From Methanorbis furvi (GTDB lineage: Archaea > Halobacteriota > Methanomicrobia > Methanomicrobiales > Methanocorpusculaceae), in NCBI RefSeq assembly GCF_032714615.1, contig NZ_JAWDKA010000001.1, positions 1 through 64,000 of the forward strand: a stretch of DNA of 64,000 nucleotides. Direction: 5' to 3'. Every line of letters begins with the position of its first letter. The stretch's first letter is position 1. A program made the position numbers and the translations under genes. Below are positions 4,156 through 51,019 of this stretch, piece after piece. Below the pieces are notes generated by a model that saw nothing but the letters and a program-made list of their open reading frames with translations, was not told the origin of the DNA and did not search any database.

Positions 4156-4293
4156 GATGGTGGGTAGAACCAATATAAAAATACACATGCCACCTTAATA
4201 TATATGAATAATTCATTTTTTCAAAAATAATCACCTATAAAAATATACCCAATAACATTAATAAATAAAAACGGCCAAAGAAAGATCATACAC

Positions 4294-4827
4294 ATGGTAA
4301 CAGATATTTCTGAAAAAAGGAAAGGAGTGGACACGTATCTCAAGATACCACTTCTGGGTGGAGCCGTCATCGGTTTTGCCGCAGCACTCATTCAGGCGCT
4401 TTTGTTTGCCGCTGGCGGACCACAGGCGTATGGATTTTGTGTCGCATGCCACAGCCGTGACTTAATCAACTACGTAACAAACTCCCTCACCGGAAGCAAC
4501 CTTTTTCTTGCACCCTTTTCCGCAAACGCAGTTGCTGCAGGAACTCTGCCGGTCTTAACCATCATCGGCGTATTAGTTGGAGCAGCAGGAGCAGCAGTTC
4601 TCTACAAAGAGTTCAGAGTCAAAAAAGGCGACGCAAAAAGTTACGCAGTCTATGGAATCGGCGGAATCCTCTTCATGATCTTCGCACTCTGTATGGGAGC
4701 ATGCCCGTACCGCCTTGCACTCAGAATCGGTTACGGCGACCTCGTTGCAGTCTTCGGACTCATCGCACTCATCGTCGGAGTATTCATCGGCATCAAAATC
4801 GCCATGAAAAGAATGGAGGGAAAATAA
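4294..4827 (+). CDS. YeeE/YedE-family sulfur transporter, first half-protein
   Basis: A 177-residue integral membrane protein with about five hydrophobic segments after a short charged N-terminus. It carries half of the YeeE/YedE fold: a first cysteine motif (GFCVACHSRD, two Cys) and a second (MGACPYRLALR) that match the SGFC...R-D and GGCP-LR motifs of the family. Characterised YeeE (TsuA) imports thiosulfate through conserved cysteines and is one chain of about 350 residues; here the two halves are separate genes, one base apart. First gene of a six-gene sulfur operon. An AT-rich TATA-like region (TTAATAAATA) lies about 35 bp upstream. Confidence 0.85.
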   Translation: MVTDISEKRKGVDTYLKIPLLGGAVIGFAAALIQALLFAAGGPQAYGFCVACHSRDLINYVTNSLTGSNLFLAPFSANAVAAGTLPVLTIIGVLVGAAGAAVLYKEFRVKKGDAKSYAVYGIGGILFMIFALCMGACPYRLALRIGYGDLVAVFGLIALIVGVFIGIKIAMKRMEGK

Positions 4828-4828
4828 C

Positions 4829-5350
4829 ATGGTTGACGGATTCTTAATTCCCAAAGAAACAGCAGTACTGCTTGTACCAATCGCAACGATCATCCTCGGA
4901 CTTGTCATCGGATGGCTTGGTCAGAGAAGCGGATTCTGTTCAATCGGCGGTATTCGCGACTACATGCTCTTCCGCCAGACCCGTCTCCTCAAAGGATACA
5001 TCGCACTCATCATCTCAGCATTCGTCTTCTACTTCATCTTCTCCTTAATCGTTCCCGCAGCAATTCCCAAATTCTTCTGGTGCCTTCAGGAAGGACAGCT
5101 CTTCACCGCAATCGGTGGAGCTCCGGCAGTAGGTACTGTAGGAGTCATCATCCTCATGATCATCGGCGGAATCTTCGTTGGAATTATTGGAACACTCCTT
5201 GGCGGATGCCCGTTGCGTCAGTTGGTAATGACCTCGGAAGGAAACATGAAATCCCTGATCTTCGTGGTCGGCATGCTTGCAGGTGCAGTCATCTTCACCG
5301 CACTTCTCTCCCCATGGATCGTACAAGCGTTTACCGCAATAGGACTCTGA
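4829..5350 (+). CDS. YeeE/YedE-family sulfur transporter, second half-protein
   Basis: A 173-residue membrane protein, the counterpart of the preceding gene. It has the better-conserved motifs SGFCSIGGIRD and LGGCPLRQLVM, each with the cysteine expected to pass a sulfur anion along the pore. About five transmembrane segments are apparent. The two halves probably assemble into one transporter of thiosulfate or another sulfur species; the substrate is inferred from TsuA and from the TusA and OsmC neighbours. The start codon is one base after the preceding stop. Confidence 0.87.
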   Translation: MVDGFLIPKETAVLLVPIATIILGLVIGWLGQRSGFCSIGGIRDYMLFRQTRLLKGYIALIISAFVFYFIFSLIVPAAIPKFFWCLQEGQLFTAIGGAPAVGTVGVIILMIIGGIFVGIIGTLLGGCPLRQLVMTSEGNMKSLIFVVGMLAGAVIFTALLSPWIVQAFTAIGL

Positions 5351-5360
5351 AGGAAAAATC

Positions 5361-5585
5361 ATGACAGAAAAATTAGACATCACCGGAAAAGTCTGTCCGA
5401 TCTGTCTTCTGGCAGTAGACAAAGAGCTGAAAAAACTCTCTTCAGGCGAAGAACTCGTTGTAGTATGCGACCACGCACCCGCAGCTACAGCATCCATTCC
5501 CGAGTACTGCGAAAACAGAAACCACAGATGCAGTGTAAAAATGATTGAAAACGGACTTTGGGAAATCAGTATCACTAAGAACTGA
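5361..5585 (+). CDS. TusA-type sulfur carrier protein
   Basis: A 74-residue TusA/SirA-family protein with the CPxC motif (GKVCPICLLAVDKELKKL) at residues 12-15 and the usual beta-alpha-beta layout. TusA proteins carry sulfur as a persulfide on the first Cys. It sits ten bases after the transporter half-gene, the arrangement known from YeeE-TusA pairs, where the carrier picks up imported sulfur. The ATG has AAGGA six to ten bases upstream. Confidence 0.9.
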   Translation: MTEKLDITGKVCPICLLAVDKELKKLSSGEELVVVCDHAPAATASIPEYCENRNHRCSVKMIENGLWEISITKN

Positions 5586-5603
5586 GAAACCAAATAGATT
5601 AGG

Positions 5604-5816
5604 ATGATACCTGACTTCCGTGAAGAATCGTGTACTTATCTAATGCTGAGGCTGAAAGTTGCCTTAAAAAAAGAAAAAGGCGCTTTCAGTTTTCTCGGTA
5701 CATCGACACAGGTGAAAACAGTGGAAGGATCATTTCCTGCAAGCGGTTATACAGTCAGCTCCACAAAAAAAGGAGATGACTGCTATCTTATCACATTGTC
5801 ATTAACAGAAACCTGA
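5604..5816 (+). CDS. Degenerate TusA-like protein
   Basis: A 70-residue protein that looks like a second TusA-fold protein. D-F-R-x-x-S-C followed by LMLRLKVALKK aligns with the D-x-R-G-x-x-C-P-x-P-LLKLKKAL start of TusA, with the Cys kept (residue 10) and the prolines lost. The end, GYTVSSTKKGDDCYLITLSL, matches the last two strands. The alignment is by eye and the match is modest. It follows the canonical TusA by 18 bp, so it may be a second acceptor or a dimer partner. An internal ATG at 5643 would remove the Cys region, so the first ATG is preferred. Confidence 0.65.
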   Translation: MIPDFREESCTYLMLRLKVALKKEKGAFSFLGTSTQVKTVEGSFPASGYTVSSTKKGDDCYLITLSLTET

Positions 5817-5856
5817 AGTCATCACATCTACAAAAATATTTGGAGAATATACGCAA

Positions 5857-6381
5857 ATGTCACTCAACAATATCGATATAGCACAGGTAAAGCAGTACGA
5901 GGCCGAGATAAAGGCTGACGACAACGAAGCATTGTTCACGACCAAGATGAGCGGAACCTGGCAGTTCGACGAGAACGGCCCACAGTTTACAGCAGACGCA
6001 AAGACCGACGCAGGACCGGTCACGTTTGCGTTAGCCCACCCGAACTTCGAGAAGCTTGGCAACTATCCGTCACCAATGGCATATGGTCTGTTCTGGATCT
6101 GCGGATGTGCTTCGGCTACTTTCATGACCGCCGCAGCAAAACGAGGAATCAAGATCGATGCTCTGCACACCGACATCGAAGCTGACCTCGATTATCATGC
6201 ACAGTTCCAGCTTGGCGACCAGCCTCTGGTTGGCGCGTACAGAGTTACGTTCAATGTAACGAGCGCACAGGCAACCGATGAGGAGATCGAGAGCCTGAAA
6301 CAGGCGGCATATAACGGATGCATGGCGCTGTTTACGGTGAGAAATGCAATTCCGTTAACCGTTTCTGCAAAGAGAGCATGA
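5857..6381 (+). CDS. OsmC-like protein
   Basis: A 174-residue OsmC/Ohr-superfamily protein. The two redox-active cysteines of the fold are visible: one in WICGCASATFM (about residues 82-84) and one in YNGCMALFTVRNAIP (about residue 156). Classical OsmC reduces organic hydroperoxides, and OsmC-like proteins next to TusA or YeeE genes are thought to handle sulfur or selenium. It is embedded in the sulfur operon, and its last codons overlap the next gene by four bases (ATGA), so translation is coupled. Confidence 0.88.
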   Translation: MSLNNIDIAQVKQYEAEIKADDNEALFTTKMSGTWQFDENGPQFTADAKTDAGPVTFALAHPNFEKLGNYPSPMAYGLFWICGCASATFMTAAAKRGIKIDALHTDIEADLDYHAQFQLGDQPLVGAYRVTFNVTSAQATDEEIESLKQAAYNGCMALFTVRNAIPLTVSAKRA

Positions 6382-6857
6382 CGCTCCCTTCCTATTTTTC
6401 CATTCCGGAAAATCTCGACTGTGCCCAATTACAAATTCAGGCTGAAGAACTTTTCAACAGCGGACAGTTCTACTGTTCTGAGATTGTGGTGAAAATGATT
6501 AGAGACACCTTCTGTCCGTCAGTTTCAGATGAGATTATTGCGGCCGCATCAGGTTTTCCTGTTGGCATGGGCGGCGGAGGATGCACGTGTGGAGCGGTTG
6601 CAGGAGGGATTATGGCTCTTGGTCTTGTTTTCGGCAGAACAAAACCTGAGGAGAAAGCAAAATCAGCAGAGTGTATGAAGTATGCACGTGAGCTTCACGA
6701 CAGGTTCCGCAAAGAAAACACGTCGGTGTGCTGTCGGGTGCTGACAAAAAATATGCTCGAAGACTCGCCGGAACGTAAGAAACAGTGTGCTGAACTTACC
6801 GGCGAGGTTGTTGAGATTGTTACCGAGATTATTCAGAGAGAAGCAAAAGCACCGTAA
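6378..6857 (+). CDS. C_GCAxxG_C_C family redox protein
   Basis: A 159-residue protein of the C_GCAxxG_C_C family (TIGR01909), whose members carry conserved cysteines and often sit beside redox or metal-handling genes. The signature is GGGGCTCGAVAGGIMALGL, flanked by an early Cys in FYCSEIVVKM and later Cys in TSVCCRVL and KKQCAEL. The ATG at 6378 overlaps the OsmC stop (ATGA); the frame is open further upstream but that stretch lies inside osmC. It is the last gene of the operon. The function is not established; a thiol/disulfide or sulfur-carrier role fits the context. Confidence 0.85.
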   Translation: MTLPSYFSIPENLDCAQLQIQAEELFNSGQFYCSEIVVKMIRDTFCPSVSDEIIAAASGFPVGMGGGGCTCGAVAGGIMALGLVFGRTKPEEKAKSAECMKYARELHDRFRKENTSVCCRVLTKNMLEDSPERKKQCAELTGEVVEIVTEIIQREAKAP

Positions 6858-6886: not shown

Positions 6887-7405
6887 TTATCGTACGATGC
6901 CCACGTACGGCAGGTTTCGGTACTTCTGATCCCAGTCAAGCCCGTATCCCACAACGAAATCATCGCCGATGGAAAATCCGATGTACTCTCCCTCGAACGG
7001 AACGACCCGGCACTCATGTTTGTCCAGTAGCGAACATACCGCAATTGATGCAGGATTGCGATCAAGCATCAGCTGTTTTACATGGCTGAGCGTTCTGCCG
7101 GTATCAATCACATCCTCAATAATAATTACATGCTTTCCGGCGATTGCCTCTTCGGGCACATCCAGTTTCATCACTAAATTTCCGGTCGAGTTTTTTCCCT
7201 CATAACTTTTTGCCTGAATGAACTCCATGAACACCGGAAGGGTCACGCGTTTCGCAAGTTCGCAGGCAAAGAAGCAGGCGCCTTTCAGAGTACAGAGAAA
7301 TATGATCTCTTTTCCTGCGTAATCGTGATCGATGCTCTCTGCCAGTTCTTTGATGCGTGCGTTGATTTTTTCCTCAGAAATCAAAACGTCGATAGTATCC
7401 GCCAT
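6887..7405 (-). CDS. hpt: Hypoxanthine (guanine) phosphoribosyltransferase
   Basis: A 172-residue purine-salvage enzyme that transfers phosphoribose from PRPP to hypoxanthine or guanine. The PRPP-binding motif is IIIEDVIDTGRTLSH (VxxxEDxxDTGxT), with the LKGACFFACEL loop at the N-terminal side and VVGYGLDW near the end. The family N-terminus begins MADTIDVLIS, so the start is the ATG at 7403-7405. The frame opens 47 codons further upstream, but that extension reads through repeat-like DNA at 7483-7530. Confidence 0.92.
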   Translation of the reverse strand: MADTIDVLISEEKINARIKELAESIDHDYAGKEIIFLCTLKGACFFACELAKRVTLPVFMEFIQAKSYEGKNSTGNLVMKLDVPEEAIAGKHVIIIEDVIDTGRTLSHVKQLMLDRNPASIAVCSLLDKHECRVVPFEGEYIGFSIGDDFVVGYGLDWDQKYRNLPYVGIVR

Positions 7406-7482
7406 ACAACTCTGCTGATCTATTGCACAAATCCGCCAATAACTCTGCCGGTAAAAAAATGTAGTGATATCACTACACAATT

Positions 7483-7530
7483 TATTTCCGTGCTGTTTTT
7501 TTCGGTGAAATTTCCGTGGTCGGCAGGACG
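7483..7530. repeat. Family A repeat remnant (one arm)
   Basis: TTTCCGTGCTGTTTTTTTCG and GAAATTTCCGTGG resemble the right arm of the family A inverted repeats (for example 16080-16110), but the left arm and the CGTGGGCGG end are missing. Confidence 0.45.
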
Positions 7531-7552
7531 TAATAAACAAAGCCAAATATTT

Positions 7553-7562
7553 GAAAAAAAAA
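7553..7562 (-). terminator. Oligo-T tract after carB
   Basis: A run of A on the plus strand gives a T tract about ten bases after the carB stop codon. Confidence 0.4.
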
Positions 7563-7571
7563 GTTTTGAAA

Positions 7572-10500
7572 TTATTCAGCGTGATAGTGGCTGAGCGGTT
7601 CGATCGTGATCGTATTCGTCTTCATCGACTCGATTGCAAGTGCTGCTGCCTCTGCTCCGAAGATGGTTGTGATGTAGGGGATACTGTAATCGATCGTCGC
7701 CCGCATGATCTGGAAGTGATCAGCCCGTGCATTTTTGTCGCCCGGCGTATTGATGATCAGATCAATATCAGCCGCACGGATCATATCAATAATGTTCGGC
7801 GAACCCTCCTGCACTTTTCTGACCAGATTCATCTTGATGCCCTGCTGATCCATGAACTTGACCGTTCCGTCAGTTCCGTAGAGCGAGAATCCGAGGTCGG
7901 CGAGCTTCTTTGCGATCGGCAGAATCTCATTCTTCTGCTGATTGGTTACTGAGATGAACACCTTTCCTTTCAGCGGAAGTTTGTTGTCTGCCGCCTGACT
8001 TGCCTTGTAGAAAGCGCGGCCGAAGTCATAATCGATACCGATGACCTCACCCGTACTCTTCATCTCAGGGCCGAGAATCGGATCAACACCCGGCAGTCGG
8101 GAGAATGGCAGGAGAACTTCTTTGACCGCGACATGCTTGATCTCTTTTTCCTGATACGGCATGTCTGCAAGCTTCTTGCCAAGCATCGCCTTTGCTGCAA
8201 TCTTTGCAAGCGGAAGGCCGGTTGCCTTTGCCACGAACGGAACCGTTCGGCTTGCACGCGGGTTTGCCTCAAGAACATAGATCGTTCCATTGTGCAGAGC
8301 GTACTGAATGTTGATAAGACCAACCACGCCAAGCGAGAGCGCAATCTTTCTGGTATAGTTTTTCACCGTCTCAATCTGTTCCTGCGTTAAGGTCTGGGTT
8401 GGAATCACACAGGCTGAGTCTCCGGAGTGAACACCGGCCTCCTCAATGTGCTCCATGATTCCGCCAATCAGAACATCTGTTCCGTCACTGACCGCGTCCA
8501 CATCAAGCTCGGTTGCATTGTCGAGGTATCTGTCGATCAGCACCGGATGGGTGTTTGACACTCTGACTGCTTCTTTGATGTAGGTCTGCAGCTCAAGTTC
8601 GTCATGGACAAGTTCCATCGCACGGCCGCCGAGAACATAGCTCGGGCGAACGAGAACCGGGTAGCCGATCCGCTTTGCGATCTCGTACGCCTCTTTTTCC
8701 GAGTATGCGGAACCGTTCGCAGGGGACGGAATGCCGTCTTTTTCGAGGAGAACACTGAACCGGTTTCTGTCCTCAGCAACATCCATGTTGTCAGGACTCG
8801 TTCCAAGAATCTTTGTCTTCAGACCGAACAGCTTGATCTCTTCCTGAATCGGAATCGCAAGGTTCACCGAGTTCTGTCCGCCAAACTGTACCATCACGCC
8901 GTCGTAGTCTCCTTTCCTGAGAATGTTAACCACGTCTTCGAGCTGCATGGGTTCAAAGTAGAGCCGATCAGAAGTGTCGAAGTCTGTTGAGACGGTCTCA
9001 GGATTATTGTTGAGAATGTGGACCTCGATGCCTTCTTCACGCAGCGACTTGACCGCATGCACTGTACAGTAATCGAACTCAATACCCTGACCGATACGAA
9101 TCGCACCGGAACCGAGAATGAGTACCTTCTTCTTCGGCGAGTCACGCAGTTCGCACTCCTGCTCCCAGGTGGAGTAGTAGTAGGGCGTCTTTGCCGGGAA
9201 CTCTGCTGCGCAGGTGTCCACCATCTTGTAGGTCGGGAGACCGACGAGGCTTTCGATCTTATAGATGTTCCATCCGGTAAGTTCGCGAATCTCGGCGTTC
9301 GAGAAGCCGAACTTCTTCGCGGTCTTGACCAGCTCTTCGGTCGGGTGTTCGCGCAGCTCAAGCTCGATGTCAACGACATGCTGGATCTTTTCTAAGAAGA
9401 ACGGTTCGATCTGGGTCAGCTGGTGAACCTCATCGATCGTCATGCCGAGCCGGAACGCATCGAACAGTGTCGGGAACCGTTCGTCGGTCGGGCGCGAGAG
9501 GATCATTCTGATCTCGTTGATGTCGGTGTGGTGGTAAATGTCGGTGTCAAGAGAACGAAGCGCCTTCTTGAATCCTTCTTCAACCGTTCTGCCGATTGCC
9601 ATGACCTCGCCCGTACTTTTCATCGCTGTGGTGAGGGTCCGGTCAGCAGTCTTGAACTTGTCAAACGGCCAGCGGGAAACTTTGACCACAACATAATCGA
9701 CTGCCGGCTCAAAGCATGCGGGCGTTGTGCCGGTAACGGTGTTGGTGATCTCATCAAGCCGCATACCGATCGCAATCTTTGCGGCAACTCTTGCAATCGG
9801 GTAACCGGTTGCTTTTGATGCGAGTGCCGAGCTTCGCGAGACACGCGGGTTTACTTCGATGATCCGGTAGTCGCCGTTTTTGAATGCGAACTGGATGTTG
9901 CACCCTCCCTGAATGTTGAGGGATCTGATGATCTTGATCGCAGCTCTGCGCATGATGCCGAACTGGTCAGCAGTCAGCGTGAGAATCGGTGCGACTACGA
10001 CAGACTCGCCGGTGTGTACACCCATCGGGTCAACATTTTCCATTCCGCAGATGATGATACAGGTGTCGGCTGCGTCACGCATAACTTCGAACTCGATCTC
10101 GTTCCAGCCTTTGACCGACTCTTCGATCAGCACCTGGTGGACACGGGACTTGGTAAGACCGTGCTCAACAATTTTTCTGAGTTCCTCTTTGGTTGCGGCA
10201 ACTCCTCCGCCGCTGCCGCCAAGGGTGTATGCGGGACGGATGATTGCCGGAAGGCCGACGACGGCGAATGCTTCTTCGAGCTGTTCCATCTTGGTTAAGA
10301 TGAAACTTCGCGGGACCGGTTCACCGATCTCGACCATGAGATTTTTGAACATCTCACGGTCTTCGCCGTGATAGATTGCTTCAAGCGGTGTTCCAAGAAT
10401 CTGAACGCCTTCAAGAGCGCCCATCTCGTAGAGCTCTGCTGTAAGGTTGAGACCGGTCTGGCCGCCCATACCGGAAAGAATTCCGTCCGGCTTTTCCTTC

Positions 10501-40956: not shown

Positions 40957-41559
40957 ATGGTCTGCCTACTCTACGAATACCTCCTCAGGCGTAAGCTTGA
41001 TGAGAATATGTTTCCGGAAGAGATCTGCTTCATGCTCAGCGAAGCGGATTTTCTTGCAAACCCGGGGCGGGTAGAAACGGTTTGCCGGTGGTGTATGGAT
41101 TTCCCGGCAATCAAAAAGATCATCTTTCACATCAGCTCGAAAAATCCAAACTCCCAAAAAGAGATGACACCTCTCCTCCAAAATCTTGCTGACACCGCAA
41201 TCGTTCGCATAAGTACGCCGTCCGGCGAAGAGACCTTTGGTACCGGCCAGCCTGAAATTCTTCTCGTCGTCGGACGAAGCGGCCGCGAAGAGATAACAGA
41301 CGCAATTATACAGATCGCAAAAGAAGAGATCGACCCTGCCGAAATTACCGAAGAGACCATCGAATCACATCTCCGCTATCAGGTAAACCCGGACTTTGTC
41401 ATCAAAACAGGCGGCAGCCACCTGACAGACTTTTTGATCTGGCAGTCTGTGTACTCGGAACTCTTTTTCACCGATGTCAACTGGAACAGATTCAGACGTT
41501 TAGATCTGCTTCGTGCACTTCGCGACTACCAGACACGGATAAGGCGATACGGTCAGTAG
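40957..41559 (+). CDS. Cis-prenyltransferase-like subunit without N-terminal catalytic motif
   Basis: A 200-residue protein of the UppS fold. The C-terminal third is well conserved: PDFVIKTGGSHLTDFLIWQ, then SVYSELFFTDVNWNRFRRLD and LLRALRDYQTRIRRYG, which carries the R-x-G end important for catalysis and dimer contact in cis-prenyltransferases. The N-terminal region that should contain the catalytic Asp (xxxDGNxRW) and the diphosphate-binding Arg is replaced by MVCLLYEYLLRRKLDENMF. It resembles NgBR/Nus1-type partners of a catalytic subunit; the catalytic candidate is the gene at 47744-48511. Three bases separate it from the DUF1848 gene. Confidence 0.85.
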   Translation: MVCLLYEYLLRRKLDENMFPEEICFMLSEADFLANPGRVETVCRWCMDFPAIKKIIFHISSKNPNSQKEMTPLLQNLADTAIVRISTPSGEETFGTGQPEILLVVGRSGREEITDAIIQIAKEEIDPAEITEETIESHLRYQVNPDFVIKTGGSHLTDFLIWQSVYSELFFTDVNWNRFRRLDLLRALRDYQTRIRRYGQ

Positions 41560-41562
41560 AAT

Positions 41563-42465
41563 ATGATCATCTCTGCGAGCAGACGAACCGACATCCCTGC
41601 ACATTTTCCTGAATGGTTCTGCCAAAGACTCGCCGAAGAATTCTGCCTCGTGCGTAACCCGTACTCAAAGAAAATTACTCACGTCTCCCTGAAAAAAGAG
41701 GACGTTGATGCAGTTGTATTCTGGACAAAAAATGCCGGACCAATGCTTTCGCATTTATCCAAAATCGATGCAAGCAGTATTCCATACTATTTTCAGTACA
41801 CCATAACACCGTACGGCCCTGAGATTGAAACAAATCTGAACAAAGATCACTGCATCGAAAATTTTCTTGCACTCTCAAGCATCATCGGAAAAGATCGCGT
41901 ACTCTGGCGGTACGACCCGATACTTATCACGAAAAAATATTCAACATCGTTTCACGAGAAAGCATTTGAAAAATTCTGTGAAAAATTTTCAGACGCAACC
42001 TCACGCTGCACCATCAGTTTTGTTGACAGTTATCCCTCCTCACCATTTCGTGAGTGCACGATCTCTGAAAAAAATTTTCTTGCGGAAAAATTTTCTGTGA
42101 CCGCAAAAAATTTTGGAATCCCGCTCATGTCATGCGCGGAAGGGGAGGGACTCAGGACCTTTGGCATCACCCCTGCATCCTGCATCGACAAAGATCTGTG
42201 CGAAAAATTGTGCGGCTCACCGCTCACAGTCAAAAAAGATCCGCAGCAGCGACCCTCATGCGGATGTGTAAAAAGTGTTGACATTGGCGGATACCATACC
42301 TGCAGAAACGGATGCCTCTACTGTTATGCATGCGGGGGGAAAATGCCGGAGACACATGACCAACACTCACCGCTCATCTCAGGATTTCCGAATGAAAATG
42401 AACTCATATCGCATAATAATATACCAAATTCATCAGATTGTCAGACACGATTGTCTTTTAAATAA
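41563..42465 (+). CDS. DUF1848-family protein with Cys cluster
   Basis: A 300-residue protein of DUF1848. It starts MIISASRRTDIPAHFPEW, the family's signature, and keeps VFWTKNAGPM and DRVLWRYDPI. The C-terminal part has many cysteines (ASCIDKDLCEKLC, CGCVKSVDIGGYHTC, CRNGCLYCYACGG), and the last group resembles a radical-SAM-like or other Fe-S cluster site. The biochemical role is unknown. It may be co-transcribed with the cis-prenyltransferase-like gene. Confidence 0.85.
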   Translation: MIISASRRTDIPAHFPEWFCQRLAEEFCLVRNPYSKKITHVSLKKEDVDAVVFWTKNAGPMLSHLSKIDASSIPYYFQYTITPYGPEIETNLNKDHCIENFLALSSIIGKDRVLWRYDPILITKKYSTSFHEKAFEKFCEKFSDATSRCTISFVDSYPSSPFRECTISEKNFLAEKFSVTAKNFGIPLMSCAEGEGLRTFGITPASCIDKDLCEKLCGSPLTVKKDPQQRPSCGCVKSVDIGGYHTCRNGCLYCYACGGKMPETHDQHSPLISGFPNENELISHNNIPNSSDCQTRLSFK

Positions 42466-42551
42466 TCGAAAACAATTGTCTTTGTATTTAATTATAATAA
42501 AAACATTTTTGTAACAATGTATATAAATAATCGGCTTAAATCATTAAGAAT

Positions 42552-44225
42552 ATGAAAAGGCGATGGGTACTCCTGTGTGCGATTATTGTAGTATGCATCA
42601 TTGTGTGCAGTATTTTTGCAGTATGCCATCTGCCGCCCAGTCCCGAGCCGCGTCAGGCAAACATTTCTGACGAGATGCGGGAAACATTGGATGAACTTCA
42701 GGGCTTCATGGTGGAAAAAACCAAAGAGATCAACACCGACATGCGGCAAGCCTCATTCGCACTTTCCGGAGTCACGGATGAAAAAGAGGCTGTCGACATT
42801 TTGTACGAACTCTACTGGGAGCATCCTGAAGGCCCGGGTATTTACCGGACAAATGCCGAAGGCGAGATTATCACCACAGTGCCGTACAGAATCATGACTG
42901 ATGCTCTCAACAACCCTGAGCTTCGGGCAATCAACGAAAAATCATTTTCAAACAAGACTGATCTGATACTGGAAGGGCCTGTCTACACCCAGTCTTACGG
43001 CATGGTGTTGGCTTTTATGATGCCGGTATATACCGAAGACGGCAAGTACGACGGATACATCTGCCTCGGTCAGTCTCCTGATGAAATTCTGCTTGATCAT
43101 CTGTCCCCATATACGGCAAACTCCAGTGAACGCTACGATATATCGATAATCCGTCCTGACGGTACTATTCTGTGGCATCCGAACACCGATCTGATCGGAA
43201 AGAGCATCTACACATCACATCTGTTTGATGAGTTCAGAGATGATATACTGCCGATTCTGGAAAAACCCGAAGGAGAAACTTCGTACCGGTATCGGGGGCT
43301 TGGCTATGACCAGACCATTCTTGAAAAAGATGCGGTGTGGAAGACCGTGATGGTTGATGAAACGGCGTACCGTGTAATTTTGGCAACCTATCAGTATGCC
43401 GAACCCGAGGTTGTGTTTCCAACAAATATGACGGATATGCATCTGCAGAATATTGTGCGGTCCATGTACCTCTATGCAGGTTCCCACACAAAAGAGCAGA
43501 CGTTTAAGGCAATCAATGATCCAAAAGGACCGTTTGCTGAAAAAGGAGTTATCGCGTTTGCCTATAATATGGATGGAACGCTGCTTGCCCACTCCACCCT
43601 TCAGTATCTGATCGGAGAAAAGCGGCTGGGTTACCGGGGAGCCTACAGTATCCTTACTCCGGTTACCGGTATGATCAACCGTGCTTCACAGGGTGGAGGG
43701 TTTACACATTATTACACGGCGGTTCCGTACACTGATCATCTGGCAACCTTTGATCTCTGTTATGTTCTGCCGGTGGATGATACCTGGTTTGTCGGTGCGG
43801 CGATGCCGGTAAACAATACGCTGTTCACCTACGATACCGGAGTCAGGGATGATATGCACCAAAATCTGGAGACTGCCAGAAAGTACCTCAACACATATGG
43901 AAAGGAGAAGACGATTGAAGAGATGATGAACCCGTCCGGTTTTTTCCATACGAACAATATTCCGGTGTTTGCCGGAGATTATAATGGAACCATGCTCACG
44001 GATGCAGATATTTTCCCCCTCAAAGCCGGTGAGAATTCTTTTTCGATGATTTCGTACCATGGCGGGTCTGCCGGCAGGGAGCTGGTGATTCTGGCAAAGT
44101 CTGGAGGAGGGTACACACTTTATGATACTGACAAGGGTATTTACATGATCTATGTTGAGCCGGTGGATGATACTTGGTATATGGGAAGCAGTTTGCGGGT
44201 GGGTGATTCCCATCCTTTAACCTGA
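42552..44225 (+). CDS. Membrane-anchored extracytoplasmic Cache-domain protein
   Basis: A 557-residue protein with an N-terminal transmembrane anchor or signal (residues 5-25) and then only extracytoplasmic sequence. Residues about 40-240 form a dCache-like unit (ISIIRPDGTILWHPNTDLIG is the second-lobe signature). Two further Cache-like units follow (AFAYNMDGTLLAHSTLQYLI; PVFAGDYNGTMLTDADIFPL, each ending VDDTWFVGAAMPV or VDDTWYMGSSLRV). There is no histidine kinase, methyl-accepting or other output domain, so it is a binding protein or co-receptor rather than a complete sensor. TATA-like TATATAAATA lies near 42520-42530. Twelve bases separate it from the pilin-like gene. Confidence 0.82.
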   Translation: MKRRWVLLCAIIVVCIIVCSIFAVCHLPPSPEPRQANISDEMRETLDELQGFMVEKTKEINTDMRQASFALSGVTDEKEAVDILYELYWEHPEGPGIYRTNAEGEIITTVPYRIMTDALNNPELRAINEKSFSNKTDLILEGPVYTQSYGMVLAFMMPVYTEDGKYDGYICLGQSPDEILLDHLSPYTANSSERYDISIIRPDGTILWHPNTDLIGKSIYTSHLFDEFRDDILPILEKPEGETSYRYRGLGYDQTILEKDAVWKTVMVDETAYRVILATYQYAEPEVVFPTNMTDMHLQNIVRSMYLYAGSHTKEQTFKAINDPKGPFAEKGVIAFAYNMDGTLLAHSTLQYLIGEKRLGYRGAYSILTPVTGMINRASQGGGFTHYYTAVPYTDHLATFDLCYVLPVDDTWFVGAAMPVNNTLFTYDTGVRDDMHQNLETARKYLNTYGKEKTIEEMMNPSGFFHTNNIPVFAGDYNGTMLTDADIFPLKAGENSFSMISYHGGSAGRELVILAKSGGGYTLYDTDKGIYMIYVEPVDDTWYMGSSLRVGDSHPLT

Positions 44226-44237
44226 GGAGGAAGAGAT

Positions 44238-44663
44238 ATGAACGTATGTGCACACGCAAATATCTATGAGATACAGTCTGCCAGACCGGGGGGGTTTTCC
44301 CTGCTGGTTGGTGCCATTCTTATTGCAGGCATTATTTTTGGAATGGTGTTTGTAGGAATTATGGCGATGGACAAAATTGTTGAGAAGGTGGAGAGTAATG
44401 CGGCGGTAACGGTGCATCTGCATGGGGATGATATTGAGGTGATGATCCTTTCCAGCTCATTTGCAGAGGAAATTATTTCCATTGAGGTCTCGATCGACGG
44501 AGTTTCTGATAGCAGAATGGTAATACCGGTCACGCTCGGGACTCCGGTATTCTGTGATGATATTGCTGTGGGAGTTACGGGATCAAAGTTTGTTGTGATC
44601 AATGCGATGTTTGCGGATGGAACGTCTGCTGTTATTCATTACACAAGAGTGCAGTTCTCGTAA
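44238..44663 (+). CDS. Pilin-like membrane-anchored protein
   Basis: A 141-residue protein: a short polar N-terminus (about 20 residues, ending SARPGG), one strong hydrophobic helix (FSLLVGAILIAGIIFGMVFV), then a beta-rich extracellular domain. This is the plan of archaeal type IV pilin-like proteins, and the next gene encodes a prepilin peptidase. The cleavage motif before the helix is not canonical, so the assignment is tentative. A strong ribosome site (GAGGAGG) precedes the ATG. It follows the Cache protein gene and is probably in its operon. Confidence 0.62.
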   Translation: MNVCAHANIYEIQSARPGGFSLLVGAILIAGIIFGMVFVGIMAMDKIVEKVESNAAVTVHLHGDDIEVMILSSSFAEEIISIEVSIDGVSDSRMVIPVTLGTPVFCDDIAVGVTGSKFVVINAMFADGTSAVIHYTRVQFS

Positions 44664-44680
44664 AACTTTTTTTTTATTTT
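44664..44680. terminator. T-rich spacer between convergent pilin-like and peptidase genes
   Basis: AACTTTTTTTTTATTTTTTA immediately follows the pilin-like stop codon and would terminate the plus-strand unit. Confidence 0.5.
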
Positions 44681-45451
44681 TTATCCGAGTAGGATCATCA
44701 ATATTGCGTCTGAGAGGCTGTAGCCGAAGAGTGCAAGGATGTAGCCGAGAGTGATGGGAATCATGAACGGGATGCCGTAGGTGATCCAGACGTTCCCCGC
44801 ACGCCGGTAGAGGTCAAGTTCGTTTGCGTACTTTTCCGGGTATTCGCGAAGGTTGCGGATTGAGAGAGCGGAACTTTTTTTCAGAGCGCGGACGGAGCTT
44901 GATGCAGGGAGAAACTCTCTTGTGATTTCGTCACCGTCGGTGATCTCTTCGGCGACAAATCCGAAGTGTCTGGTGATGGTGTCGCCTGAGACCGGCATGC
45001 CTGAACACATCAGCCAGAAGGGGGCTTTTTGTCTGCGAAGAATATTTTGTATGAGGAGGGCGAGCGGTATGAGGAGGGCGATGACGCCTGCGTTCAGAAG
45101 GGTTGAGAGGGCAAGCGAGGGAACAATCCATATGGCGAACGGTGTTACGGGGACGGTTGCTGCAAGGAGGATCATTGCTTTTGCATCAGCCCAGCCGAAC
45201 ATACCTGCTTTGGCAAACACCCACATCATGATACAGACGATTACCGAGGTTGCAAGGATGCTTGCTGAAAGTGCTGAGGGCTGAAGGAACTGCTGATACC
45301 AGAAGTATAGGGCTGCAATTCCTCCGATGACTGCTGCCGGGTACCAGGTTGTGGTCAGGACCGTGCGGGTTTTGATGTCCTGCCATGATGCGTAGAGGAA
45401 TGTTATGAGAACCGCGATTGCGGAGATGGCAAGAGGCAGGAGTTCATACAT
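44681..45451 (-). CDS. A24-family prepilin/preflagellin peptidase
   Basis: A 256-residue membrane aspartyl protease with about seven hydrophobic segments. The two catalytic aspartates are expected in ASWQDIKTRTV (about residue 25) and in GMFGWADAKAMIL (GxGD-like motif, G-W-A-D). A soluble loop of about 75 residues (GDTITRHFGFVAEEITDGDE onward) is inserted before the last helices. It would cleave class III signal peptides of archaeal pilins or archaellins. It converges with the pilin-like gene. Confidence 0.87.
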   Translation of the reverse strand: MYELLPLAISAIAVLITFLYASWQDIKTRTVLTTTWYPAAVIGGIAALYFWYQQFLQPSALSASILATSVIVCIMMWVFAKAGMFGWADAKAMILLAATVPVTPFAIWIVPSLALSTLLNAGVIALLIPLALLIQNILRRQKAPFWLMCSGMPVSGDTITRHFGFVAEEITDGDEITREFLPASSSVRALKKSSALSIRNLREYPEKYANELDLYRRAGNVWITYGIPFMIPITLGYILALFGYSLSDAILMILLG

Positions 45452-45522
45452 TATGCAAATAGTTGGATGTGAAAGAATTTGAAATTTTAGCGAGAGGGCT
45501 TTGCAATTTTATCGTATGAGCC

Positions 45523-45553
45523 TCGCCCACGGAAAAGCGGAACACACAGAAAT
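45523..45553. repeat. Family A single left arm
   Basis: TCGCCCACGGAAAAGCGGAA followed by CACACAGAAAT; no right arm follows, so this is a truncated copy between two genes. Confidence 0.6.
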
Positions 45554-45590
45554 AATCACCACAAAGCCGTAGTGTTGGAAAAAATAGAAA

Positions 45591-45971
45591 TTATTTGAAG
45601 ATCTCTGCTGCTTCGGTTTTGCCGTAGACATAGGACGGCATGCCGGCAAGCATGAAGGTGACACGGAGAGCCTCTTCTACTTCGGCCATGGTGACGCCGA
45701 GGTGTTTTGCTCCCTGAAGTTGTGCGTGCAGTGCGTGGTCGTCACGCATTGATGCGGCGATTGCGATTGCCATCAGTTTTTTCTGTTTGCGGGAAAGTGC
45801 CCCGTCAGACCAGATGTAGTTGTCAAGCTTCAAAACCGCCTCATGCATTGCAGGGTCAGATTTTGCGAGATCGCGGAAGAAGACCGGAACGTGGCCGATA
45901 TTTTCCTCAAGTTGTTTCATGTCGCCAGCTTTGTAGTTGTGGCCACCGCAGGGTATTTTTTGTTCGGTCAT
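45591..45971 (-). CDS. Carboxymuconolactone decarboxylase-family protein without CxxC
   Basis: A 126-residue all-helical protein of the CMD/AhpD fold. MAIAIAASMRDDHALHAQLQGAKHLG (given here in part) matches the core helix, where AhpD-type peroxidase partners have CxxC-x3-H. Here the two cysteines are replaced (R-D-D-H-A-L-H), leaving the His, so disulfide chemistry is not possible at this site. ALSRKQKKLMAIAIAAS and VTMAEVEEALRVTFMLAG are also typical. The N-terminus holds one Cys (KIPCGGHN). Function unknown, perhaps binding rather than redox. Confidence 0.85.
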   Translation of the reverse strand: MTEQKIPCGGHNYKAGDMKQLEENIGHVPVFFRDLAKSDPAMHEAVLKLDNYIWSDGALSRKQKKLMAIAIAASMRDDHALHAQLQGAKHLGVTMAEVEEALRVTFMLAGMPSYVYGKTEAAEIFK

Positions 45972-46050
45972 GATTGTCTCACCTATTTCATATATCTGCA
46001 GGTTTTGATATTAGCCTTTTAGGTGGTGGCAATTTTGTGGGATGACGATG

Positions 46051-46183
46051 CCGCCCACGGAAAAACAGAAAGCACGGAATTACACGGAAATATTGTTTCA
46101 AAGATGGATTCCGTGATGTTTTTTGTCTGCTCCGTGATGTTTTTTTGTGAAATTTCCGTGTACTCAGTGTGTTCCGTGGGCGA
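46051..46183. repeat. Family A long inverted repeat, copy 5 (short, decayed)
   Basis: Left end CCGCCCACGGAAAAACAGAA, right end GTGTGTTCCGTGGGCG. The centre keeps CCGTGATGTTTTTTGTCTGC but the left GAGCAGACG block is gone. Confidence 0.7.
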
Positions 46184-46215
46184 CTGCGAAGGAGATTTTT
46201 CCGTATCCCAGATTT

Positions 46216-46224
46216 TTTTATACT
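46216..46224 (+). promoter_or_regulatory. TATA box of the flavoprotein gene
   Basis: TTTTTATAC, 28 bases before the ATG at 46248, which implies a leaderless or nearly leaderless transcript and excludes the longer open frame to the left. Confidence 0.5.
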
Positions 46225-46247
46225 CGCTAAACCCAATACAACCAGTA

Positions 46248-46856
46248 ATGACAAAAAAAGTGCTGGCGCTGTTCGGGAGCAATCTCATCGGAGGAAACAC
46301 CGATAAACTCCTGACACAGGCGATCAAAGGAGTTGAGGACGCCGGCTGTACGGTCGAGCGAATCAATGTTGCCCATCTGAATGCAGGTCCCTGCAACCAG
46401 ACCTACTCCTGCATGATAGAACCAACCTGCGCAATCGAGGACGACATGAAGGATGCCTACCGGAAAATAAAACAGGCGGACGGCATCATTATTGCAACGC
46501 CGGTGATGACCTACGGAGTTCCGGGCGCACTGAAATCATTTATGGACCGGTGCCAGCCGTTTTACATGGCAAAATACTACCGCAAACAGCCGTTCATCAC
46601 ACCCGAACATGTGAAAATCCGCAGAACACTCTTCATCTGCATCGGAGGAATGAAGGATCCTGATATTTTTACCGGGCCTGTTCTTACGACAAAGGCATTC
46701 TGTGCAATTGTGGATGCGAAATATTCCGACGAACTGCTGCAGAACGATATGGATACCATTCTAAATGTCGAGAAAAAACCAGAGCTTCTCGCAGCGGCGT
46801 ACGAGAAGGGAAAAGCCCTCGGTGAACGTATCGTAAAAATGCGGGATGGGGAGTAA
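46248..46856 (+). CDS. NADPH-dependent FMN reductase / Isf-like flavoprotein
   Basis: A 202-residue flavodoxin-like protein. The FMN phosphate loop is GSNLIGGNTDKLL at residues 10-22, and ATPVMTYGVPGALKSFMDRC is the second FMN loop. A Cys group, GPCNQTYSCMIEPTCAIEDDM, lies where iron-sulfur flavoproteins (Isf) carry four cluster ligands. Only three Cys with different spacing are present, so a 4Fe-4S cluster is uncertain. It probably reduces quinones, oxygen species or another electron acceptor. It stands alone between a repeat and a convergent lipoprotein gene. Confidence 0.85.
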   Translation: MTKKVLALFGSNLIGGNTDKLLTQAIKGVEDAGCTVERINVAHLNAGPCNQTYSCMIEPTCAIEDDMKDAYRKIKQADGIIIATPVMTYGVPGALKSFMDRCQPFYMAKYYRKQPFITPEHVKIRRTLFICIGGMKDPDIFTGPVLTTKAFCAIVDAKYSDELLQNDMDTILNVEKKPELLAAAYEKGKALGERIVKMRDGE

Positions 46857-46863
46857 CTCTCCC

Positions 46864-47712
46864 TTACCATCGCGGTGCATAAGGAATACCGGTATTCACC
46901 GTAATATTCACCATTTTTTTCACCACATATCCCTTGGTATCAACAGCGACCACGGAAATATTTGTTTTTCCCGAGATGGTTGGAACGGAAACGATCGTGA
47001 TATGATTTTGCAGAGGCGTAGAAACAATCCCGGTCGACCAGTCACCTGTATAGGGCTCTTTATAATAATCTTTATAGAAATTACTCTGGACCTCAGCTTC
47101 CCTGAGACCATATTTGCTGAGAATTCTCACATCAACCAGGATATGATGCGGCACCACGTCCCCCCAGAAGACTGCACCCTCCTGCGGAGATAGAATCTCT
47201 ACTTTGATCTGTTCATCCGTGTCGTCTGCGGGAAAGGTAACGCCCTCAAACATCAGCGGGATGTCGGTTATGCTCAGCGATCTATTCATAAACGGAACCG
47301 ACCCGTTCAGATTTGCCGCCTCATTCCACTTCTGATAAATGCGGCTCATCTCCTCATAAGACGGCGGATGCTCTGCATCGACGTAGAGAACGATGGTCTG
47401 ATCCATCTCCTTCCAGCCAAGAACGGGTCCGTTCGGATACCATGTCTCGTTCATGAATTCTCGAAGTTCTGCCATAACCGGATTATCATGATACGAATCA
47501 GCCAAAAGACGAACCATCCACGAATCTTTTTGTGGAGCTCCAAAGGATTGAATAACCTGACTTTTTGAATCGTCCGCAATTGGAATCTCCGTAGGTTTGC
47601 CTGAGATTGGCGGTTGTGTTGCGTTATCTACATCATTTGTTCCGATACATCCCGCAGAACAGATAAAACAAACAATCATTACCGCCAGAAAAACAGTCCG
47701 CCATCCTGCCAT
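46864..47712 (-). CDS. Lipoprotein of unknown function
   Basis: A 282-residue protein with a signal peptide and lipobox (CFICSAGC, Cys about residue 22), so it should be lipid-anchored outside the membrane. The mature part is Asn/Ser/Thr-rich with several N-x-S/T sites. Its C-terminal 110 residues (VEILSPQEGAVFWGDVVPHH onward) look like an Ig-like or bacterial big-domain fold, with NISVVAVDTKGYVVKKMVNI as final strands. The N-terminal domain is not recognised. Confidence 0.75.
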   Translation of the reverse strand: MAGWRTVFLAVMIVCFICSAGCIGTNDVDNATQPPISGKPTEIPIADDSKSQVIQSFGAPQKDSWMVRLLADSYHDNPVMAELREFMNETWYPNGPVLGWKEMDQTIVLYVDAEHPPSYEEMSRIYQKWNEAANLNGSVPFMNRSLSITDIPLMFEGVTFPADDTDEQIKVEILSPQEGAVFWGDVVPHHILVDVRILSKYGLREAEVQSNFYKDYYKEPYTGDWSTGIVSTPLQNHITIVSVPTISGKTNISVVAVDTKGYVVKKMVNITVNTGIPYAPRW

Positions 47713-47743
47713 GCCAGAGTATTGTTGGTCAGGATTCTTAATA

Positions 47744-48511
47744 TTATGCGGACAACCCGCTCATCCGCTCATCATAAACCCGGAGCGCCCGGAGCATATC
47801 CACGTACCGGAACTCGGGCCAGGTCGGTGTACAGAAACAGACCGCCGCTTCATTGCCGTTCGCCATCCAGGGAAGAAAGTTCGAAGTCCGGCGATCATTT
47901 GCCGTGCGAATGATCAGATCAACAGGCGGCATGGAAATACCCTGATACATATTTTCTGTCACGAGTTCAGGCGTAATCTGACTCACGGGAATACTTCCGT
48001 CCCGCACAGCAGCCACAATTTTTTTCGCAGTTGCCACAATCTCATTTCTTCCGCCGTAGGCGATGGCAATATGCACAAAAAATCTGGAATGATCTTTCGT
48101 TGCAACTTCCGTCTCCTCAATTATTTGCAGAAGCTCGTCATCAAGAAGTGCCCGATCCCCGATAATCGTTATATTGATCTCATTTTTGTAGACACGTTCA
48201 TCAGTCAGCAGCCGCGAAAACGTATCCATAAACAACAGATGAAGCTCGGCCTTCTCTTCTTCAGGCCTTCTGAAATTTTCTGTTGAAAACGCAAAAAATG
48301 TCACATGACGGATGCCGAGTTCGCCCATCCAGTCAAGCACCCTCTCGCTCGTATCAGCACCAAGACGGTGGCCGTAGCTGGTATCCATCCCCCGCGATTT
48401 TGCAAACCTTCGGTTGCCGTCCTGAATAATTGCGACATGACTTGGGATATGCAAAAGCTTTCCACGAAGCCTCTTCGCATACACCGCTTCGGCAACCGAC
48501 CGGATACTCAC
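47744..48511 (-). CDS. uppS: Cis-prenyltransferase catalytic subunit (UppS family)
   Basis: A 255-residue enzyme that builds long-chain cis-polyprenyl diphosphate, the glycan carrier lipid precursor. The catalytic N-terminal motif HVAIIQDGNRRFAKSRG contains Asp31 and the diphosphate-binding Arg residues; TFFAFSTENFRRP and FVHIAIAYGGRNEIV are also canonical. The C-terminal part departs from the family: IIRTANDRRTSNFLPWMANG and AAVCFCTPTWPEFRY replace the usual RTSGE...NFLLWQxAYSELYF, and the R-x-G end is missing (ERMSGLSA). It may therefore need the partner at 40957-41559. Its start overlaps the radical SAM gene by four bases. Confidence 0.88.
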   Translation of the reverse strand: MSIRSVAEAVYAKRLRGKLLHIPSHVAIIQDGNRRFAKSRGMDTSYGHRLGADTSERVLDWMGELGIRHVTFFAFSTENFRRPEEEKAELHLLFMDTFSRLLTDERVYKNEINITIIGDRALLDDELLQIIEETEVATKDHSRFFVHIAIAYGGRNEIVATAKKIVAAVRDGSIPVSQITPELVTENMYQGISMPPVDLIIRTANDRRTSNFLPWMANGNEAAVCFCTPTWPEFRYVDMLRALRVYDERMSGLSA

Positions 48512-49512
48512 TGCGGGATCACCTCAACAATCATCCCGTCGTTCGGATACCGCTCGATAATTTTTCGCTCGCCGCCGAACTTGCGGGGGATTTTTCGCAT
48601 CTGCTGCCAGTCGAGCTCGATCGTCCCGTCATCCATCTCCTCATAGTAGCTGCCGGCCTTCAGACAGGGAAGGATCATCTCCAGATCTGCCCCCGGGTCC
48701 ATCGAGCCGTACATCACGGTGCCGTCGTCGGTTATCATATCAAACGGCCGTGCGGAGTTCATCGCAATCCGTTTCAGCCGTTCACGCAGCTGAACCGAAT
48801 CCTTGAACGTCGAGGTACAGTAGTGAACCTTCGGATGACCGTTGATCTCGCCCGCCCACTTCGTCGAACCCTTGATCGCATTGCAGAGAGGATTCTCCGG
48901 CTCAAGTTTTCTCGCCCGCATCGCTTCTGCACAACTGTCTCCCCACTCCAGCTGATTGATGTTGAAAAAGTCAAGACTGTCCAGCAGCGGGAAAAAGTGG
49001 CGAAGGCCTGCGAGTGACGGAACCTCAATTCCCACACAAAATCCCATTCTTTTCGCATTCGCAATAGACTCAGGGAACTTGGAGGTCATAATGCCGGCCC
49101 ACTCCTCGTGCGGAGGATGCATCCGAATCTCATCAACACAGGGCCGCAGGGCTGCGAGTTCCTCCTCAGTTGGGGCATGGCCGGTGTAGAGATGAATATG
49201 GTGGTCAGGACCGAAGTGGTTTTTCAGATACGTACAAAACTCAACCACGCGGTCGAGTTCCAGCAGCGGCTCGCCGCCGGTAACTCCGGTGCCAAGCGCG
49301 TCCATCACTTCTGCTTCAGGAATTGCTTCTTCAGGCGTTGTTATTTTTTGATCGTTCGCAAAAATAACATCCACATTTTTGCGTTCCTCAGAGAGCGGAC
49401 AGTACCAGCAGTCGCGATCGCATTTTCCGGTGATGAACAGCACCAGCTTCGCTCCCTGATAACAGAGCCTACATCCCTCGCTGAGATTTTTTGGAAGTTT
49501 GTCCTTTGCCAT
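48508..49512 (-). CDS. Radical SAM protein in the lysS-uppS operon
   Basis: A 334-residue radical SAM enzyme. An N-terminal Cys pair (GCRLCYQGAKLVLF) precedes the cluster motif GKCDRDCWYCPL (CxxxCxxC), and TGVTGGEPLLELD follows as the GGEP motif. Further cysteines occur in the C-terminal half (NINQLEWGDSC, KVHYCTSTFKD). The extra N-terminal Cys resembles enzymes of the PFL-activating/pyruvate-formate lyase activase-like group, but the substrate is unknown. It sits between lysS and uppS with one base and a 4-base overlap respectively. Confidence 0.85.
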   Translation of the reverse strand: MAKDKLPKNLSEGCRLCYQGAKLVLFITGKCDRDCWYCPLSEERKNVDVIFANDQKITTPEEAIPEAEVMDALGTGVTGGEPLLELDRVVEFCTYLKNHFGPDHHIHLYTGHAPTEEELAALRPCVDEIRMHPPHEEWAGIMTSKFPESIANAKRMGFCVGIEVPSLAGLRHFFPLLDSLDFFNINQLEWGDSCAEAMRARKLEPENPLCNAIKGSTKWAGEINGHPKVHYCTSTFKDSVQLRERLKRIAMNSARPFDMITDDGTVMYGSMDPGADLEMILPCLKAGSYYEEMDDGTIELDWQQMRKIPRKFGGERKIIERYPNDGMIVEVIPQ

Positions 49513-49513
49513 A

Positions 49514-51019
49514 TTATGCGGCCATCTCTTTCAACCGGGCGAGTGTTGCCTCGCGGCCGATTGCTTCTAAGAACCAGCCAAGCCTCGGGCCGCGGTCAGC
49601 TCCGAGGAATGCACGGTAGATTGCGGTGAACAGCTCTTTTCCGGTAACTCCGGCGGCTGCGGCTGCGTCATAAACTGCGTTGTGCAGGACGTCTGCTTTC
49701 CACTCGCCTGCGGCAACTGCTGCTGCGTAGGCAGCGACTGCTGCCTTGACGTTTGCCGGTTCTGCTGCGGCAACGTCTGGAAGGATCTGCTGAATTGCAA
49801 ACTTCACATCCTCGGGCGCGTACAGTTCGAGCCATCTCTTCGCACGATCTGCCTGGTCCATCACTGCATGTTCGTCCACAATTGCGTAGCCGCTGCGCTT
49901 GAGGATATCAAAGATCGCATCATCGGTCTGGGCAATCTGCACGACTGCGACCATGTGACGGAACGGAATGGTTGTCTGGGGAGAAGCAATCTTGGAGAGT
50001 TCGTACTCGCGTGACTCGCCTGCTGCTGCGGCACGGTCGTACTCGTCGATGAGTCTGAGCAGCCCCATTCCCGGATCGAACTCAATCGTCTTGTCGGGTT
50101 TGGTCTTTGCAATCAGGAAGCGAAGAACCTCAGGCGGTACGATCTCGAGCATGTCGCGGATGGTGAGAACGACTCCTTTGGATGAGTGCATCTCGCCGCG
50201 TCCTTTGAGGCTGATCCATTCGTAGGTTACCGGCATCGGGGCGTTGTAGCCGTAGATATCTTTGGTGATGTATTTGCCGGTGTCGTACGATCCTCCGGGT
50301 GAGGCGTGATCTTTGCCGAAGGGTTCGATGGTTACGCCGTAGACCGACCAGCGCATCGGCCAGTCAACACGCCAGACAAGTTTTCCTTCGCCTTTGGAGT
50401 AGTCGGAGACTCCTTCGTGACCGCAGGAACATTTGTAGGTGACCGTGTGTTTTTCTGCATCATGCGAAAGGATGGTTGCCCGTGAGATGGTGCCGCACTC
50501 CCCGCAGATCGGATAGTACGGAGTCCAGCCTTCCTCAAGTTTTCTGCCGGAGACTCTCTCAAGGATCTCTTTGATCTCTTCTGCATGGACAAGAGCGAGT
50601 CTGATCTGTTCGGTGAACATGCCGGAGCGGTAGGCTTCGCTTGTCCGAATAATGCGGGGATGAATATCAAGTTCCTGAATTGCGGAGAGGAACGGGTCAA
50701 GGAAGTGTTCTGCGTAGCTTTTGTGTTTGCCGCACGGACAGGGGATGTCTGAGACCGGCCATCCGATATATTTTTCGTAGGAGGCGGGGAGGAATGGGTA
50801 TACTTTGCGGAGTGGATCGAAGTCGTCAGCCACATAGACGAGTTCTGCGTCAACACCGCGGCTTTTCAGTGCCTTGAAGATCATGTCTCCGGTCATGATT
50901 TCACGCATGTTTCCAAGGTGAATTGGTCCGGATGGAGTGATTCCTGTGGCGATCAGCTGGTGTTTGTCGGCCGGAACGCCGGAGGCTCTGGCGTCAGCCC
51001 AGTGGATTTTTTCATTCAC
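49514..51019 (-). CDS. lysS: Lysyl-tRNA synthetase, class I
   Basis: A 501-residue class I LysRS, the form common in methanogens. The HIGH motif is GPIHLGN (about residues 31-37) and the KMSKS motif is GEMHSSKG (about 279-286). A four-Cys zinc site lies between them (CGECGTISRA and CSCGHEG). The start is GTG at 51017-51019, with GGAG about ten bases upstream (AGGAGTACAAAAGC); an ATG nearby is out of frame. It leads an operon with the radical SAM gene and uppS. Confidence 0.95.
   Translation of the reverse strand: MNEKIHWADARASGVPADKHQLIATGITPSGPIHLGNMREIMTGDMIFKALKSRGVDAELVYVADDFDPLRKVYPFLPASYEKYIGWPVSDIPCPCGKHKSYAEHFLDPFLSAIQELDIHPRIIRTSEAYRSGMFTEQIRLALVHAEEIKEILERVSGRKLEEGWTPYYPICGECGTISRATILSHDAEKHTVTYKCSCGHEGVSDYSKGEGKLVWRVDWPMRWSVYGVTIEPFGKDHASPGGSYDTGKYITKDIYGYNAPMPVTYEWISLKGRGEMHSSKGVVLTIRDMLEIVPPEVLRFLIAKTKPDKTIEFDPGMGLLRLIDEYDRAAAAGESREYELSKIASPQTTIPFRHMVAVVQIAQTDDAIFDILKRSGYAIVDEHAVMDQADRAKRWLELYAPEDVKFAIQQILPDVAAAEPANVKAAVAAYAAAVAAGEWKADVLHNAVYDAAAAAGVTGKELFTAIYRAFLGADRGPRLGWFLEAIGREATLARLKEMAA

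Follow-up and report, generated by a model that had tools for sequence, protein, structure and literature searches.

Two genes of Methanorbis furvi, located in the first 64,000 nucleotides of contig NZ_JAWDKA010000001.1 (hereafter the window), very probably encode one subunit each of a single heteromeric cis-prenyltransferase, which would make the polyprenyl diphosphate precursor of the dolichyl-phosphate used in the AglB pathway. Archaeal N-glycosylation requires a long polyprenyl carrier, and the genes that synthesize this carrier are annotated singly, as UppS or isoprenyl transferase. The pair is an unusually well-supported new example of a known two-part enzyme, not a new kind of system. 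The evidence obtained directly consists of the complementarity of sequences and motifs, the fold, co-distribution, the single-clade origin of each subunit, gene linkage and a joint absence with AglB.

Two proteins with complementary motifs

The original prediction had pointed to open reading frames at 47744-48511 and 40957-41559. Both were found at these positions; it had left out that the first lies on the minus strand and has a GTG start codon. This minus-strand gene (47744..48511) encodes subunit A, a predicted catalytic cis-prenyltransferase subunit of 255 aa without the RxG tail, which matches PF01255 (Pfam) with 209 bits (E=9e-62) over model positions 1-214 of 219. In a residue alignment (E. 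coli UppS numbering), A retains D26, G27, N28, R30, H43 and S71, as well as N74, R77, R194, R200, S202 and E213, so that the catalytic N-terminus is intact as had been proposed. The catalytic motif HVAIIQDGNRRF (residues 25-36, 48404..48439, minus strand) contains D31-G-N-R-R35, which shows no variation among 41 A proteins from across the phylum. R34 and R82, the counterparts of DHDDS R37 and R85, are invariant in the same 41 proteins.

Subunit A had also been thought to lack both the conserved C-terminal segment and the RxG end. The loss of RxG holds, but the segment is not lost: the last helix WPEFRYVDMLRALRVYDER is present and only the terminal tail is absent. The protein ends in RMSGLSA, about six residues beyond the core helix, and it carries neither a TLGG-like tail nor the DHDDS-type C-terminal helix-turn-helix domain for tetramerization. 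Its AlphaFold2 model (pLDDT 87.8) has TM-scores of about 0.8-0.86 to UppS and DHDDS. In many families, A bears 40-60 additional C-terminal residues (loci L167, L172, L173, L177, L178 and L181), an extension that is absent in the window's order (Methanomicrobiales) and is perhaps helical and comparable with the DHDDS C-terminal domain.

Subunit B (40957..41559, plus strand, 200 aa) is a putative NgBR/Nus1-like non-catalytic subunit. Its PF01255 match (87 bits, E=1.6e-24) is confined to model positions 115-219, in the C-terminal half only. In the residue alignment (human NgBR sequence from PDB entry 6w2l, also used for the NgBR tree), B lacks D26, N28, R30, H43, N74 and R77, has K for R194 and H for R200, and retains E213 and the RxG tail (E. 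coli UppS numbering). This tail, R197-Y-G199-Q200 (41545..41556, plus strand), is followed by the stop codon. The B profile aligned with human NUS1 across profile positions 12-197, its whole length (E=3e-9). The AlphaFold2 model of B had a pLDDT of 86.8; among the 50 Foldseek matches listed for it, bacterial and plant enzymes came first and NUS1 did not appear, and the modelled structure points to the general cis-prenyltransferase fold and to nothing finer. By inspection, the N-terminus MVCLLYEYLLRRKLDENMFPEE has no long hydrophobic stretch that could serve as a membrane anchor. The window B is 73-74% identical to records labelled Methanocalculaceae or Methanocorpusculum. A scan of genome contigs returned only members of the order plus one bin labelled Lachnospiraceae; a record titled Lachnospiraceae bacterium (L060, JAKSRN010000254.1) contains a typical Methanocorpusculum-like B gene and is probably a mis-binned contig.

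Distribution of the two subunits

The window's genome (95.8% complete) contains A and B and no third PF01255 gene. Since it also carries the gene of the AglB oligosaccharyltransferase, it should encode an enzyme that makes the carrier lipid, for which A and B are the sole candidates found. Within the order, PF01255 matches were present in 134 of 135 genomes, and 133 had two or more; the exceptions are G037, with none, and G045, which lacks A and has B at the end of a contig. A search of the phylum, very probably Halobacteriota, with the B profile gave matches in 389 of 392 genomes, and about 380 of these matched in at least two places. All 33 genomes sampled from 26 families outside the order, drawn from genomes with matches, combine an A type that has DGNRR with a single B type that does not.

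The reciprocal motif loss of A and B is fixed across order and phylum. In an alignment of 27 pairs from the order, D31-G-N-R-R35 of A and R194, R196, R197 and G199 of B are invariant. DGNRR occurs in 136 of the 137 distinct A proteins, the exception being a degenerate copy, and is absent from all 157 distinct complete B proteins. In every one of these 157, a single residue follows the glycine and ends the chain; the three residues up to this glycine are a strict RxG in 151 and K/N/T-x-G in the remaining six. The description of B as a protein without the catalytic N-terminus and with a conserved C-terminal tail agrees both with the residue alignment and with the wider set. Among the A proteins, 131 of 137 have no RxG at or beside the canonical position, and six have a stray, non-conserved R-S-G one residue off it. 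A wide pattern had given an apparent RxG in 17 A proteins, most of them beyond the canonical place and six being the displaced R-S-G.

Four genomes contain A only (G207, G242, G276 and G400) and four B only (G271, G284, G379 and G045). All are drafts, most with many contigs, and these cases are probably assembly gaps, although a few, G379 for example, are of high completeness. Independent distribution of the two genes, which the original prediction had named as evidence against itself, was checked: genomes almost always have both, and one family (f12) has neither.

Several variants were also seen. A second, degenerate A copy adjoins an intact one in G112 (L183, 145-1071), and in family f15 (L217 and L218, from G152 and G143) B is very divergent and only 164-168 aa long, still ending in RRFG plus one residue. 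An extra A-type gene is borne by plasmid pMETEV01 of Methanohalobium evestigatum (L233), near a TnpB-family gene. Scattered genomes also encode a third cis-prenyltransferase, which is MM_0014-like and combines DGNRR with a TLGG/TMGG tail (L221-L224, in G154, G135, G127 and G004).

Co-variation and proposed relation to N-glycosylation

In family f12 (G140, G149 and G158, 86-91% complete), neither a PF01255 protein nor AglB/STT3 was found, and AglB was present in all 11 other genomes tested. The carrier-lipid synthase and N-glycosylation appear to have been lost together in this family, a shared absence that represents one event and is thus suggestive only. In G171 (L243, family f21), the AglB gene (4175-6856) adjoins B (about 7188-7787), both on the minus strand.

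Over 93 loci, the pairwise distances of A and of B were correlated at 0.85. Net of the distances of the radical-SAM gene, the correlation was 0.61 (partial Mantel p 0.0005, 93 loci), compared with 0.36 and 0.35 for the control pairs.

Gene neighbourhood

The two genes lie 6.18 kb apart, matching the 6 kb given originally, and are transcribed convergently. Upstream of A, on the minus strand, Pfam identified lysS (49514-51019) and a radical-SAM gene (48508-49512) overlapping the beginning of A; the two form a probable operon (48508..51019). The order radical-SAM gene then A, often with lysS, is retained in relatives. The block between the convergent genes (41563..47712, Pfam) contains a DUF1848 gene after B, together with genes for a dCache protein, a small secreted/pilin-like protein, a prepilin peptidase, a CMD protein, an FMN reductase and a 282-aa hypothetical protein. 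In the window genus, this block lies between lysS-rSAM-A and B-DUF2551. Comparable blocks of about 3-9 kb separate A and B in close relatives, and there is none where A and B are adjacent. In one genome (G015, L246, 2122-8074), the DUF1848, dCache and pilin-like genes occur twice in tandem between B and A.

Genes for enzyme subunits are commonly co-directional, and convergent ones are unusual. Linked A-B loci were tail to tail in 40/41, 61/61 and 28/28 cases in three partly overlapping samplings of the order, and their stop codons are often less than 30 bp apart or overlapping. In other families, the genes were convergent in 12 of 13 linked genomes, a count by genome, the 17 loci recovered including repeats. 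The window keeps this common convergent orientation around its 6-kb insert. Because the genes are separated and oppositely oriented in the window genus, they share no operon there.

Proposed mechanism and alternative functions

As originally proposed, the two proteins resemble an NgBR/Nus1 plus DHDDS/Rer2 pair, a likeness supported by reciprocal motif loss throughout order and phylum and by their being the sole cis-prenyltransferase pair in the genome. Subunit A would hold the donor site, the IPP site and the hydrophobic tunnel and do the chemistry. Subunit B, predicted to have the same fold and no working active site, would dock at the canonical dimer interface and insert its C-terminal R-x-G-x tail into the active site of A. 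By analogy with NgBR, the main chain of RxG and the terminal carboxylate would contact the IPP-site phosphate and R34 and R82 of A. In the human enzyme, the carboxylate of the last NgBR residue, K293, is bound by DHDDS R37 and R85 (PMC7573591), and the end of B, fixed one residue after the glycine, recalls this terminus. The polyprenyl diphosphate product would be converted to archaeal dolichyl-phosphate and serve AglB-dependent N-glycosylation. We infer the physical complex, the dependence of activity on B, and the identity and length of the product; the choice of A and B as partners follows from their being the only two candidates in the genome. The turnover of human DHDDS/NgBR is about 400-500 times that of DHDDS by itself (PMC7573591; PMC6921004). 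Since DHDDS alone is weakly active as a homodimer (PMC6921004), A may likewise have some activity without B.

Alternatively, A might work on its own as an active homodimer, B being a divergent paralogue that serves some other purpose, such as regulation or lipid binding. Every catalytic residue is indeed retained in A, and MM_0014-type enzymes act as homodimers without RxG, by means of a TLGG tail (PMC8131916). However, A has no such tail and belongs to a clade different from the MM_0014-like C type; moreover, B is retained along with A, the distances of the two covary, and the most conserved end of B is precisely the RxG tail that A is missing. We consider this explanation very improbable. 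Still less credit can be given to the idea that B is a pseudogene in decay or derives from A by duplication and truncation. The shorter length of B and its missing catalytic motif would fit, but B is intact, conserved throughout the phylum with strongly conserved C-terminal positions, and forms its own clade apart from A, a conservation that already refutes this candidate.

Ancestry of the pair

In a tree of 97 proteins, A formed one clade (support 100/93) and B another (100/100); the window A grouped with the other A proteins and not with the C clade. Human DHDDS joined A at 96/90 in this tree, whose outgroups were bacterial only, and the support for A plus DHDDS was 84/82 in a smaller tree to which NgBR was added. 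The best PDB match of the phylum A profile was also human DHDDS (252.6 bits; E. coli UppS scored 240.0). The grouping of DHDDS with A is not claimed as settled, because the outgroups were bacterial and included neither archaeal homodimers nor other archaeal phyla. NgBR had a branch length of 4.6, which deprives its placement of meaning, and did not join B, and the AU test gave p 0.125 for B plus NgBR and p 0.371 for DHDDS plus NgBR. With such a branch and such values, neither grouping is claimed.

These results bear on two views of origin. NgBR/DHDDS and the archaeal pair may derive from one ancient heteromer, the split being pre-eukaryotic and inherited from archaea, which we regard as rather unlikely. 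The heteromer may instead have arisen separately in these archaea and in eukaryotes, the resemblance of B to NgBR being convergence, and to this we give an even chance. Convergence is consistent with the very long NgBR branch, its placement away from B, and an AU test that neither supports nor rejects B and NgBR as one clade; the preference of the A profile for DHDDS over the bacterial enzymes and the joining of DHDDS to A, with its lower support in the smaller tree, argue against it. A convergent origin concerns history, not function, and is compatible with A and B forming one heteromeric enzyme.

Mutations in NgBR and DHDDS cause human disease. Single-gene annotation hides the fact that neither product likely works alone in this phylum, and assays of one gene at a time would give a misleading picture. 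Should the pair go back to the ancestor of the phylum, it would provide small models, seemingly lacking a membrane anchor, for the activation of DHDDS by NgBR, and the origin of the eukaryotic heteromer would become testable. Three points are apparently new, although priority is uncertain: the distribution across the phylum, the convergent arrangement of the two genes and the grouping of A with human DHDDS. No statement of the first two was found in the accessible literature, the key subscription papers lying outside the search, and the split is not mentioned in the available part of a 2016 phylogenomic survey of these enzymes (PMC5088576).

Comparison with known cis-prenyltransferases

Bacterial homodimeric UppS shares its fold and catalytic residues with A and its RxG tail with B. 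In UppS, however, the active site and RxG are on one chain, whereas the window splits them over two proteins; neither of these has both the DGN-R active site and RxG, and no third PF01255 gene was found in the 95.8%-complete genome. The MM_0014-type homodimer (C type) resembles A in having PF01255 and DGNRR without RxG, but it forms a distinct clade, has a TLGG/TMGG tail, occurs in only some genomes and is missing from the window's genome.

The human DHDDS/NgBR and yeast Rer2/Nus1 enzymes show the same division of features. Their catalytic subunit, like A, has DGNRR and no RxG, and NgBR and Nus1, like B, lack the catalytic residues and end in R-x-G-x; the profiles follow the same division, that of B spanning NUS1 and that of A preferring DHDDS. 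Unlike NgBR, the window B appears on inspection to have no membrane-anchor stretch, and unlike DHDDS, the window A lacks the helix-turn-helix C-terminal domain that makes the heterotetramer. The product is also expected to be shorter than in human and yeast, as the M. mazei enzyme makes C45-50 (PMC8131916).

The closest known system is in Methanosarcina, for which the original prediction had named a similar pair. This pair is real: M. mazei MM_0618/MM_1083 is described as a heteromeric cis-prenyltransferase (Emi et al. 2019, as cited in PMC8131916), and M. acetivorans UPPS is listed as part of a heteromer in a 2019 figure legend (PMC6921004). The M. mazei pair was compared by its description in that citing source, and sequences of family f8 represented Methanosarcinaceae in the tree. 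In contrast to M. mazei, the window's genome has this pair only and no MM_0014-type homodimer, its A and B genes lie a few kb apart in convergent orientation, and its A has no C-terminal extension. As far as the description goes, MM_0618/MM_1083 resembles the window pair in consisting of archaeal cis-prenyltransferase paralogues that act as one enzyme for a glycosyl carrier lipid, and the A and B types of Methanosarcinaceae (family f8, via Methanohalobium evestigatum) share the A and B clades of the window proteins.
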